Assembly (NCBI RefSeq): GCF_001750145.1
Contig: NZ_CP015732.1
Location: forward strand, 558,001 to 622,000
DNA: 64,000 nt
Source: Arthrobacter sp. U41
GTDB taxonomy: Bacteria > Actinomycetota > Actinomycetes > Actinomycetales > Micrococcaceae
Direction: 5' to 3'
The number at the start of each line of letters is the position of its first letter. Within the stretch, counting starts at the first letter, position 1. The position numbers and the translations under genes are program-made. Shown in pieces: positions 20,946-22,811 of this stretch. The notes under the pieces were generated by a model, which searched no databases, was not told where the DNA came from, and saw only the letters and a list, made by a program, of their open reading frames with translations.

Positions 20946-21022
20946 CGGGATGTGGCGCAGCTTGGTAGCGCGCGTCGTTCGGGACGACGAGGTCGCAGGT
21001 TCAAATCCTGTCATCCCGACCA
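20946..21022 (+). tRNA. tRNA-Pro(CGG)
   Basis: 77 nt with the CCA encoded. The acceptor stem CGGGATG pairs with CATCCCG and the discriminator is A. The D-arm is GCGC...GCGC. The anticodon stem CGTCG/CGACG frames the loop TTCGGGA, whose anticodon is CGG (reads CCG, proline). The T-arm is GCAGG-TTCAAAT-CCTGT. A terminator hairpin follows within 5 bp. Confidence 0.97.
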
Positions 21023-21026
21023 ACCA

Positions 21027-21060
21027 AGAAGAGGGTCTTCCATCTGGAAGGCCCTCTTCT
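21027..21060 (+). terminator. Terminator after tRNA-Pro
   Basis: AGAAGAGGG-T-CTTCC, loop ATCT, GGAAG-G-CCCTCTTCT is a near-perfect 15-bp stem, followed by TTTG. It starts 5 nt after the encoded CCA. Confidence 0.9.
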
Positions 21061-21136
21061 TTGCGTGACGGGACTTTTCCGCGTTCGGGCCGATGACCCG
21101 GTCATCCGGGCGGCCTTCGCCGCGGTCAACAAAAAA

Positions 21137-21174
21137 CAGCCCCGGGACACGGTTCGAACCGTGTCCCGAGGCTG
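21137..21174 (-). terminator. Rho-independent terminator of the VGNWPDPM peptide gene
   Basis: The stem CAGCC...GGCTG encloses a 26-bp perfect palindrome centred on GGTTCGAACC. On the reverse strand it is followed by a run of six T, so it is a strong intrinsic terminator 21 bp after the peptide gene stop. This supports the peptide gene being a real, separately transcribed unit. Confidence 0.9.
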
Positions 21175-21194
21175 TGAAGCCAGGCTTCTCTTCG

Positions 21195-21413
21195 TTACAT
21201 CGGATCGGGCCAGTTGCCGACATTGGTTGAGTAAGTCATCGGGTCGGGCCAGTTACCCACGGCCTGAGGCGCATTCATGGGATCCGGCCAGTTGCCAACA
21301 GCGGTGAATCCGGCCTCGTTAACGATGGAACTAGCGGACAGAACGGCCGGGGCCGCAGCTGCAAATGCGAGTGCGCCCGCCAGGACGGCGCCGGCTGCAA
21401 TCTTCTTCAACAT
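21195..21413 (-). CDS. Secreted pro-peptide with three identical VGNWPDPM octamers (candidate pheromone)
   Basis: 72 residues. The ATG at 21413 is chosen because GAGG lies 6 nt before it; a TTG at 21425 overlaps that site. Residues 1-27 form a signal peptide (MLKKIAAG, an Ala/Leu core, LSA|SS). Then VGNWPDPM occurs at 39-46, 52-59 and 65-72, spaced by NAPQA and TYSTN; the last copy ends at the stop codon. Codons differ between copies at Val, Gly, both Pro and Asp, always synonymously, while the spacers are unrelated, so the octamer is probably the functional product. The gene is divergent from a helix-turn-helix/TPR regulator and has its own terminator. A role as an exported signalling peptide is inferred. 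Confidence 0.85.
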   Translation of the reverse strand: MLKKIAAGAVLAGALAFAAAAPAVLSASSIVNEAGFTAVGNWPDPMNAPQAVGNWPDPMTYSTNVGNWPDPM

Positions 21414-21470
21414 AGAGTTCCTCAATATGAGTCGGGGTCCTTACCAAGTCAGCACTACCCTTGTTGACAC

Positions 21471-21484
21471 ACATTGTAAAATGT
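21471..21484. promoter_or_regulatory. Inverted repeat over the peptide-gene -10 box
   Basis: ACATT-GTAA-AATGT is a perfect 5-bp inverted repeat with a 4-nt centre that covers the presumed -10 box of the VGNWPDPM gene. Its position suits an operator for the divergent regulator at 21543. Binding is a guess. Confidence 0.45.
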
Positions 21485-21503
21485 TTTCCACAGGTACTGT
21501 CAA
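21473..21503 (-). promoter_or_regulatory. Promoter of the VGNWPDPM peptide gene
   Basis: Reading the reverse strand, the consensus -35 TTGACA (21503-21498) is followed after 19 nt by TACAAT (21478-21473). The spacing is slightly long. Transcription would start near 21466 and give a leader of about 53 nt. Confidence 0.6.
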
Positions 21504-21511
21504 GCATTTAG

Positions 21512-21517
21512 TATAAA
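21512..21517 (+). promoter_or_regulatory. Candidate -10 box of the HTH-TPR regulator
   Basis: TATAAA lies in an AT-rich stretch about 26 bp before the GTG start, with AGGAGG at 21532-21537. The -35 region (about 21489-21494) is weak and would overlap the opposing peptide promoter, so the two promoters may compete or be switched together. Confidence 0.5.
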
Positions 21518-21542
21518 TAATGTCCGGAATTAGGAGGCATCC

Positions 21543-22811
21543 GTGGGGAACGGATTCGGGGAAAAACTCCGAGCGGAACGGCTGGAACGCGGCCTGACGC
21601 AGGCGGAGCTGGGCCGGGATCTGTACTCCCCCAGCTACATCTCCCTGCTGGAGACCGGACGCCGGGAACCGACCGCGGATGTGATCGAAGAGCTGGCCCG
21701 GCGGCTGGAACTGGCCCCCAAGGCGCTGGAAGCCTGGAGCCAGCCGGTGTCGGTCAGCGACGCCGAATACGTCCTTGCCGGCCTGTACGCCCGCCAGGCC
21801 TGGGACCTGCGCGACTACCCGCTGGCCGCGACGCACGCCGCGGCGGCTGCGCAAATCGCCCTCGAGGCCAAAAACACCAGCGCCTGGTGGAACATGAGCT
21901 ACATGCAGGCAGAATGCCTGATCAAACAGGGCCTGTGGCAGGAGTGCAAGGACATCGTCCAGCGTCTCCTGGACCACCCGATGGCCGCCGAGTCGGCCGG
22001 CCTTGGGGTCAGGGCGCGGCAGATGCTCGCCGCAGCCTCACAGGGACAAGGGCAGCTGACCGCCGCCGTCGAACACGCGCAGGAAGCGGTGCGGCTCTGC
22101 GCCGAGCTGCCCAAGGGCTCCACCCTGATTATTGGCGCGCTGCGCGCCCTGATCGGCGCGCTGGCCGAAAGCGGCCGGCTGGATGAGGCCTGGGAGTACT
22201 GCCAGGCCATGAACGAGCACATGGATGACCATTCCATGACCCAGCTCGCCGGCGAGGTCGCCTGGGTGATCGGCAACGTGGCTTTCATGCGCCATGACTA
22301 CCAGGAGGGCATCAAGTACCACGAGCGGGCGTCGCAACTGCTCTCCCCCGCGAACGACATTGACCTCTGGGCGCGGTTCAACAAAGCCTCCGCCGCCGTC
22401 CGCCTGTCTTCCGGGATCGTCGAGCCGGAGACACTTACCTCGATCGAACGCGCCGAACTGGCGCTCTCCATCGTCGGCGGCAACAAGACGGATCAGCTCG
22501 AAGTGGCGTTCATCCGAGCCCGCTGGCTCTACCTCACCGGGGACATTGTGGCCGCGGTCCAGAAGCTGCGCGAGATCCACGCCGACAAGGACGTACTGGC
22601 CAAGCACACTGCCGGAGAGGTTTCGCTGCTGCTCGGCAAGGCGCTCAAGGCCGCCGGCGAATCCGACGAGGCCCTCGTCTACCTCGAGGAGGCCCAGAAG
22701 GAATTCAGCGCGGCCGGCGCCTCGGACCGGGTCCAGCAAGCGATGGACGCCGTGCTGGAAATCCGGCTGGCGCAGCGCCGCGCCCAGGCCGCGGCCTCAT
22801 CCGGGACCTAG
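21543..22811 (+). CDS. Helix-turn-helix/TPR regulator, RRNPP-like (candidate peptide receptor)
   Basis: 422 residues from a GTG preceded by AGGAGG at 5 nt. Residues about 6-60 form a Xre-type helix-turn-helix: KLRAERLERGLTQAELGRDL, then SYISLLETGRREPTADVIEELARRL. The remaining 350 residues are helical pairs with TPR character, for example AWDLRDYPLAATHAAAAAQI, GVRARQMLAAASQGQGQLTA, EGIKYHERASQLL and ALVYLEEAQKEFSAAG. Size and order match NprR/PlcR-type receptors, in which exported and re-imported peptides bind the TPR groove. Its divergent neighbour encodes a secreted triple-repeat peptide. Function as a peptide receptor is inferred from this context; a peptide-independent TPR regulator is the alternative. 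Confidence 0.85.
   Translation: MGNGFGEKLRAERLERGLTQAELGRDLYSPSYISLLETGRREPTADVIEELARRLELAPKALEAWSQPVSVSDAEYVLAGLYARQAWDLRDYPLAATHAAAAAQIALEAKNTSAWWNMSYMQAECLIKQGLWQECKDIVQRLLDHPMAAESAGLGVRARQMLAAASQGQGQLTAAVEHAQEAVRLCAELPKGSTLIIGALRALIGALAESGRLDEAWEYCQAMNEHMDDHSMTQLAGEVAWVIGNVAFMRHDYQEGIKYHERASQLLSPANDIDLWARFNKASAAVRLSSGIVEPETLTSIERAELALSIVGGNKTDQLEVAFIRARWLYLTGDIVAAVQKLREIHADKDVLAKHTAGEVSLLLGKALKAAGESDEALVYLEEAQKEFSAAGASDRVQQAMDAVLEIRLAQRRAQAAASSGT

Follow-up and report, generated by a model that had tools for sequence, protein, structure and literature searches.

A conserved, co-varying precursor–receptor gene pair in Arthrobacter: probable RRNPP-like quorum sensing by peptide in Actinobacteria

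Introduction

Intracellular peptide pheromones of the RRNPP kind are known mainly from Firmicutes, and the question raised by one locus of the actinobacterium Arthrobacter sp. U41 is whether a small repetitive protein and the divergently encoded helix-turn-helix (HTH) protein with tetratricopeptide repeats (TPRs) form such a pair. The locus lies in a 64,000-nt stretch of contig NZ_CP015732.1, which we refer to as the window, and coordinates are positions within it. The original prediction, made from the letters of this stretch, was an RRNPP-type pair in which a 72-residue protein supplies the octamer VGNWPDPM and the 422-residue HTH–TPR protein senses it. That reading is supported by the adjacency of the two genes throughout the genus and by covariation of octamer position 1 with the receptor; between species the peptide varies in step with three receptor residues, which makes it likely that precursor and receptor are a cell-to-cell signalling pair. 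Compared across genomes, the pair is conserved and co-varying, and the best interpretation is an actinobacterial form of peptide quorum sensing, RRNPP-like and with a pheromone family that is new. We consider it highly probable that the 72-residue protein is a secreted pro-pheromone, predicted to be cut to VGNWPDPM-type peptides, and that the HTH–TPR protein is its intracellular receptor and regulator.

The precursor and receptor genes

The precursor is the translation of a 72-codon minus-strand frame, MLKKIAAGAVLAGALAFAAAAPAVLSASSIVNEAGFTAVGNWPDPMNAPQAVGNWPDPMTYSTNVGNWPDPM, and has the following features.

21195..21413, minus strand: pro-pheromone gene, 72 residues, by reading-frame analysis (ATG at 21411-21413, stop at 21195-21197)
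21333..21413, minus strand: predicted Sec signal peptide, residues 1-27 (...APAVLSA), from MLKK, a hydrophobic stretch and an A-x-A-like site
21276..21299, minus strand: VGNWPDPM copy 1, from the sequence
21237..21260, minus strand: VGNWPDPM copy 2, from the sequence
21198..21221, minus strand: VGNWPDPM copy 3, C-terminal at the stop codon, from the sequence
21136..21175, minus strand: predicted intrinsic terminator of the pro-pheromone gene (18-pair stem and T run, folding z -6.8)

The gene is much as first described: three exact octamers are separated by unlike linkers and the third abuts the stop codon, a GAGGA ribosome-binding site precedes an ATG start that is kept in relatives, and the terminator that had been claimed is borne out by pattern and folding. 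A mechanical list of open reading frames (ORFs) offers an alternative start, giving 76 residues from an upstream TTG. Signal peptides were called by a hydropathy score for K/R followed by a hydrophobic stretch, together with an A-x-A-like site, and not by SignalP; export of the precursor is predicted from an N-terminus that is signal-peptide-like by the hydropathy score alone. An exact octamer repeated three times is rare, occurring in just 3 of the 1,020 stop-to-stop frames of at least 30 residues in the whole window, and the other two such frames are the two strands of one short tandem repeat near 1318-2808. This is a PAANT repeat within a 496-residue minus-strand frame (about 1318-2808), which reads as antisense AGVFA on the opposite strand. 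Past the pheromone terminator lies a tRNA gene (Rfam RF00005) at 20946-21019 on the plus strand, for which an inverted repeat at 21014-21073 may serve as terminator.

No Pfam family was found for the precursor, and for neither protein did an NCBIfam family pass the cut-off. A database search with the precursor gave 330 relatives at E values up to 1e-3; among the 120 of these that were listed, the named ones are called 'hypothetical protein' or carry stray automatic labels. A fourth match to AAYTGGCCNGAYCC, on contig C4 of the same genome, is antisense to an apparent P-loop ATPase gene and was taken as chance. At that locus (L034, around 42350 on this small contig) smaller genes follow the ATPase gene, which is apparently of KAP type, and together we take them to resemble a Qat-like defence cassette.

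The receptor gene lies on the other strand.

21543..22811, plus strand: HTH–TPR receptor gene, 422 residues, GTG start, from the ORF, Pfam and orthologues; AlphaFold2 predicted local distance difference test score 92.2
21555..21734, plus strand: HTH domain, residues 5-64, by Pfam HTH_31 (1.8e-11) / HTH_3
21753..22802, plus strand: TPR superhelix, residues 71-420, from Pfam TPR matches, predicted helices and structural alignment

Its GTG start has AGGAGG upstream. The ORF and Pfam, with TPR_12 (1.6e-7) and TPR_14 above cut-off, bear out the description of a divergent 422-residue HTH protein with a TPR region, and the predicted structure is a TPR superhelix which aligns to those of Rap, NprR and AimR, and to other TPR proteins too. 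The RRNPP_detector signature, as given in the part of PMC10075063 consulted, is a receptor of 250-500 residues with TPRs beside a precursor of 10-100 residues that leaves the cell by Sec or another route; the lengths of both proteins fall within these ranges, the receptor has the repeats, and the genes are adjacent, running divergently 129 nt apart.

Conservation in the genus

An orthologue of the receptor is present in 37/37 same-genus genomes, with 77-97% identity in the 36 besides its own, and outside the genus but within the order 8 of 22 genomes gave a weak match (best E 3.6e-10). A divergent precursor accompanies the receptor at all 30 loci first fetched, that of the window included, and at nine more, making 39/39; seven further same-genus receptors lie outside these fetched loci. 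Of 319 loci in a scan of named genomes the best 80 were taken; they are titled Arthrobacter, Pseudarthrobacter or Paenarthrobacter, and a precursor was found at 80/80, 77 by script and three, which start MIKK or MVKK, by eye. HTH–TPR genes in Arthrobacter and near genera do, then, adjoin short secreted-like proteins, as the original prediction had proposed to check, and the loss of the octamer in close relatives that it named as a possible refutation was seen neither in the 39 loci nor in the best 80 of 319.

Covariation of the octamer and the receptor

Three receptor residues track the first residue of the octamer.

21921..21923, plus strand: receptor I127, covaries with pheromone position 1 (column comparison)
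21936..21938, plus strand: receptor W132, covaries with pheromone position 1, best of 312 variable columns (column comparison)
22041..22043, plus strand: receptor Q167, covaries with pheromone position 1 (column comparison)

Within the home genus a V at position 1 is found with I127-W132-Q167 (18/18) and an I with M127-L132-H167 (20/20), with no exception, and position 1 changed about four times on the discovery tree, once in the lone species L007. In the next genus, whose octamer is IGNWPDPM, 9/9 receptors are M-L-H, which makes 47/47 for the V and I types overall, and the sole T-type precursor stands beside an intermediate receptor, M-L-Q. The agreement held in 58 of 60 new receptors that had not been used to pick the columns (17 of 77 were left out as identical to earlier receptors), 35 being I with MLH and 23 V with IWQ; the remaining two have mixed copies, I,I,I,T with MLH and V,V,V,I with the intermediate MLQ. 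The three script-missed loci, read by eye, are I/MLH, I/MLH and V/IWQ. The octamer does, therefore, co-vary with the receptor in Arthrobacter and near genera, which had been posed as a test of the pairing.

Across the bacterial family, column 132 is the best separator of V and I types among 312 variable columns (70-399), with 165, 127, 167 and 164 next. It is always aliphatic in I-type receptors (41/41), and in V-type receptors it is W, F, Y or H in 46/62 and M in 16/62; these tables omit 10 receptors with P, T, M, Q, A or G as the first pheromone residue. Counted as independent pairs on the tree, the change runs in the same direction 5-6 times and never in the opposite one (median p 0.031), and when the home genus is removed the direction is unchanged but the pairs no longer reach significance (p 0.25). 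The structural model has predicted helices at 112-129, 132-144 and 152-168, which would put residue 127 late in the first helix of TPR 2, residue 132 at the start of its second and residue 167 late in the first helix of TPR 3. The three residues thus lie close together in the predicted helices and, going by the helix positions from which the groove is located, could share one corner of the concave face.

Position 8 of the octamer (M/A) associates with columns 174, 187, 180, 224, 374, 257 and others; nothing was drawn from this, because position 8 changed only about twice in the genus tree.

Selection on the octamer

The 39 same-genus precursors hold 100 octamer copies, one to four each, and GNWPDP is invariant in 100/100. 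Variation is confined to the ends, with V 46, I 52 and T 2 at position 1 and M 83, A 16 and V 1 at position 8, and 51 of 61 linkers are distinct. Codon differences between copies within one precursor number 239 synonymous and three non-synonymous, and the copies of a multi-copy precursor agree at position 1 in 38/38 cases and at position 8 in 37/38. The octamer copies are thus old enough for silent sites to have drifted while their amino acids changed together, as expected if one receptor judges all of them. Among the named loci the exception is L208, with GIWPDP in three of four copies.

The wider family

In the bacterial family 168/295 genomes, from 23/32 genera, match the receptor at E 1e-3 or better, some of them weakly. 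Loci were fetched from a chosen part of the matching genomes, and 151 receptor rows were analysed; two loci from outside the bacterial family but within the order, L073 and L074, fell below the score limit and stand outside these rows, L045 has its HTH in another frame, and the 'WP' precursor of L067 is doubtful. A divergent secreted-like ORF with a W-P motif was found in 105/151 rows, and in eight others a short ORF lacking an obvious signal peptide carries G[D/N]WP[D/H] at its end or close to it, giving 113/151 in total. These eight (L062, L112, L116, L119, L122, L124, L125 and L126) have precursors of about 20-30 residues, seven of which end in VG[D/N]WPD at the stop codon and resemble SHP-type pheromones. 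The motif differs by clade, is mostly x-G-x-W-P-x family-wide and occurs in up to eight copies, with IGNWPDPM, VGNWPDPS, VGIWPNS, FVGNWPDAV, PGIWPD, VWIWPD, VGDWPH, VNWWPD, IGWWPD, MGNWPH and VGSWPF among the clade versions. Tandem TPR receptors at L060, L063 and L064 look like duplications of the whole pair, and those at L063 and L064 have distinct pheromones, e.g. KVGNWPD and MIDNWPN.

Two asparagines are nearly invariant across the family where a pheromone gene is present.

22275..22277, plus strand: receptor N245, near-invariant where the pheromone gene is present (family alignment)
22380..22382, plus strand: receptor N280, near-invariant where the pheromone gene is present (family alignment)

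Where a peptide gene is present 112 of 113 receptors retain both, vs 27 of 38 where none was found (Fisher p 7e-7), an association which is not significant by independent pairs, and an 18-row peptide-less clade keeps both.

The intergenic region

21464..21503, no strand assigned: conserved intergenic block, predicted pheromone promoter and candidate receptor operator, from alignment of 39 same-genus intergenic regions

This block of about 40 bp reads, on the minus strand, TTGACA (21498-21503), 19 nt, TACAAT (21473-21478) and then TGTCAA (21464-21469), and its core, ACATTGTAAAATGT, is present with at most two mismatches in 39/39 same-genus loci, window included. A similar layout is found in other HTH clades, some of which have a near-palindrome after the -10-like box, most clearly L041, with CAATTGTTG-T-CAACAATTG. 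For the promoter-like boxes of the original prediction a promoter-scanner rule gave 0 matches, but the conserved block does read TTGACA-19 nt-TACAAT on the peptide strand. We suggest that the block combines the pheromone promoter with an operator for the receptor. When the whole genome was searched at up to two mismatches the core occurred at this one place, and therefore no regulon genes were identified beyond the shared promoter.

The HTH-less branch and c-di-GMP genes

A branch of 41 rows has no HTH and begins near the first TPR helix; with L058, which was filed as HTH-bearing since its match starts at residue 49 and is actually HTH-less, there are 42. An own precursor is present in 40/41; in the exception, L060_1, the sequence extends just 216 nt upstream. 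One such receptor, L055 (C1:2063792-2068811), is encoded by the window's own genome, and its precursor contains VNWWPD twice. A Pfam scan of neighbours on the relevant side of five HTH-less loci found a GGDEF-EAL protein, an enzyme of cyclic di-GMP (c-di-GMP), at L055, L070 and L072 and a histidine kinase with a DUF7793 protein at L056 and L057; a sixth locus, L071, gave an aldolase. With tblastn, L056, L057 and L071 proved also to hold a GGDEF-EAL gene, and overall such a gene was nearby in 27/31 HTH-less loci vs 0/57 HTH loci, the latter having flanks of 1.5-2 kb, shorter than the up to 4 kb of 20 HTH-less loci. By flank, the count is 8/11 at loci with 2-kb flanks, two of which supplied the query, and 19/20 at those with up to 4 kb, or 18/20 when these are cut to 2 kb. 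The HTH-less loci near a GGDEF-EAL gene include L055, L056, L057, L070-L072, L273 and L275-L292. By tblastn there is no such gene in the 64-kb window.

The natural reading of this branch would be a peptide-gated c-di-GMP switch, in which the receptor, as predicted, would work by contacting another protein, the likeliest being the GGDEF-EAL enzyme encoded nearby. A search of PDB sequences with the HTH-less alignment returned no RRNPP protein.

Beyond the family

Evidence outside the bacterial family is exploratory. The profile matched 322 of 394 genomes of the class, many through the HTH alone, and at 16 of 26 loci from the best-matching genomes (L159-L184) there is a nearby secreted-like small ORF, not always in divergent position, with a W-P or terminal C-C motif, such as DISWP (three copies), DIGWP (two copies), SIEWP, LNWPKCC, NVWCC or ILTCC. 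Such motifs occur in 16/30 nearby small ORFs vs 2/24 elsewhere in the same loci, a small control, and the window's 29 small ORFs include three with WP and none with CC. On a plasmid of Streptomyces sp. Mut1 a small ORF with three DIGWPVA copies adjoins an HTH–TPR gene; it is one of five plasmid matches examined out of 17, and the other four have no such precursor. A search of 296 class genomes for a two-copy DIxWP pattern gave two matches, one at a locus already among those fetched, and was judged too strict. Secreted-like ORFs ending in or near CC lie by HTH–TPR genes at L167, L174-L177, L179-L181 and L183, and also at L073 and L074; the ends are of the VWCC, ILTCC, PTCC and QGCCG types, and may represent a second actinobacterial pheromone class. 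On balance we lean towards an old and widespread peptide–TPR signalling system in Actinomycetes, with W-P (GNWPDPM, DIGWP, DISWP) and C-C (NVWCC, ILTCC) pheromones, a superfamily of secreted precursors whose genes adjoin those of their intracellular receptors, and a transcriptional branch beside an HTH-less c-di-GMP branch.

Mechanism and alternative explanations

In the mechanism that we propose, the precursor would be exported by Sec and trimmed by proteolysis at both sides of each octamer copy, and the peptide would re-enter through an oligopeptide permease, which the six SBP_bac_5 binding proteins of the genome make possible. It would then be bound in the concave TPR groove near 127/132/167, with N245 and N280 perhaps holding the peptide backbone, and binding would alter the attachment of the receptor to DNA in the shared intergenic region and thereby control the pheromone gene, perhaps along with other genes.

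What weighs against the pairing is that 38 of the 151 receptors have no recognisable peptide. In twenty of them the receptor gene neighbours purC, as it does in the window, and 18 of the 20 form one clade, in genus g45; since the sister rows L043 and L044 do carry precursors, loss or replacement of the peptide in this clade is likely. The original prediction had named homologues regularly lacking a peptide as a refutation, and this pattern does exist in the distant 18-row purC-syntenic clade and in other paralogues, and is not seen in the same-genus loci examined.

A different account would make the small protein a secreted structural, adhesive or antimicrobial repeat protein, its gene merely regulated by an HTH–TPR protein that never binds the peptide. 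The precursor is indeed small, repetitive and probably secreted, and the shared intergenic region would allow regulation without a ligand. However, position 1 changes together with three receptor residues, including in the switched L007 and the intermediates L083 and L265, the copies drift synonymously while the peptide stays, and the HTH-less relatives, with no DNA-binding domain, keep the same arrangement, all of which makes this account unlikely. The peptide might also be a ligand acting in or on the cell that produces it, as a timer or maturation signal, with no communication between cells. This is hard to separate from quorum sensing by sequence, and the genus g53 precursors, of about 20 residues and ending in VG[D/N]WPD with no obvious signal peptide, would suit it; we nevertheless think it quite improbable, given the signal-peptide-like N-terminus in 105/151 rows and the fact that the SHP (Rgg) and PrgQ (PrgX) precursors, which do not use Sec, are still exported, via PptAB, according to the part of PMC10075063 consulted.

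A receptor which mainly answers the related peptides of neighbours, its own precursor yielding competing or decoy peptides, is very improbable: receptors without their own peptide are what the eavesdropper idea supposes, in the part of PMC9765709 consulted, and several species do have pheromone types in common, but position 1 is uniform in 38/38 multi-copy precursors of the 39 fetched loci and fits the precursor's own receptor, as a cognate signal would. That the covariation reflects shared ancestry only, the genes descending together and the columns being the best of many, gains something from the post hoc choice of columns out of 422 residues, the few changes in the discovery tree and the loss of significance without the home genus, but is likewise very improbable when three columns perfect in the discovery set held in 9/9 receptors of another genus and 58/60 new ones and column 132 ranks first family-wide with its neighbours next.

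If the signalling-pair reading is right, a major soil phylum would possess a peptide language of its own, in which V or I against receptor residues 127/132/167, with intermediates between the two, forms a natural switch of specificity. The tandem precursors would be a clean case of pheromone–receptor coevolution, and the HTH-less branch would link a diffusible peptide directly to c-di-GMP.

Comparison with known systems

The original prediction held the three-copy pro-peptide to be unusual within RRNPP systems, which does not stand, as multi-copy propeptides are not foreign to them; what is unusual here is that multi-copy precursors are so common in the genus, that the pair occurs in this phylum, and that an HTH-less branch lies by c-di-GMP enzymes. 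The closest systems differ in several ways. NprR–NprX of the Bacillus cereus group belongs to another phylum, its receptor has about 13% identity over the structural alignment, and, unlike it, the Arthrobacter pair has a pheromone of the x-G-x-W-P-x family and back-to-back genes. PlcR–PapR likewise combines an HTH–TPR regulator with an adjacent pro-peptide, the PapR precursor being single-copy. PlcR resembles the Arthrobacter receptor by a profile match over residues 4-207 at 9.3e-11, which spans the HTH and first TPRs, and by Foldseek rank 7, and differs in being 293 residues long in the solved chain and therefore in having fewer TPRs. This profile match and the structural similarity bear on a possible common descent with the Firmicutes RRNPP receptors, but other TPR proteins equal or better them.

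Rap–Phr is like the HTH-less paralogues in joining a TPR receptor without a DNA-binding domain to an adjacent pro-peptide, and is unlike them in that their neighbour is a GGDEF-EAL c-di-GMP enzyme rather than the sporulation phosphorelay. Rap works on a response regulator through a helical bundle at its N-terminus. One modelled HTH-less paralogue has no counterpart of this bundle because it begins at the first TPR helix, its residue 1 aligning in the model to residue 42 of Rap (4gyo_B). AimR, of the AimR–AimP arbitrium system, is phage-borne, whereas the Arthrobacter receptor has no match in 50,697 phage records at E 1e-5.

None of the papers listed in the literature search, which took in few subscription papers and no preprints, reports an actinobacterial RRNPP-type system or the NWPDPM peptide, so that their absence is unproven; in silico RRNPP surveys, in the parts consulted, covered Firmicutes (PMC10075063, viruses too; PMC9765709). 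Within Actinobacteria the nearest parallel is gamma-butyrolactone signalling, which likewise reports cell density. Actinobacterial signals are typically small molecules made by enzymes, as stated in the consulted part of PMC10075063, in contrast to the encoded peptide described here.

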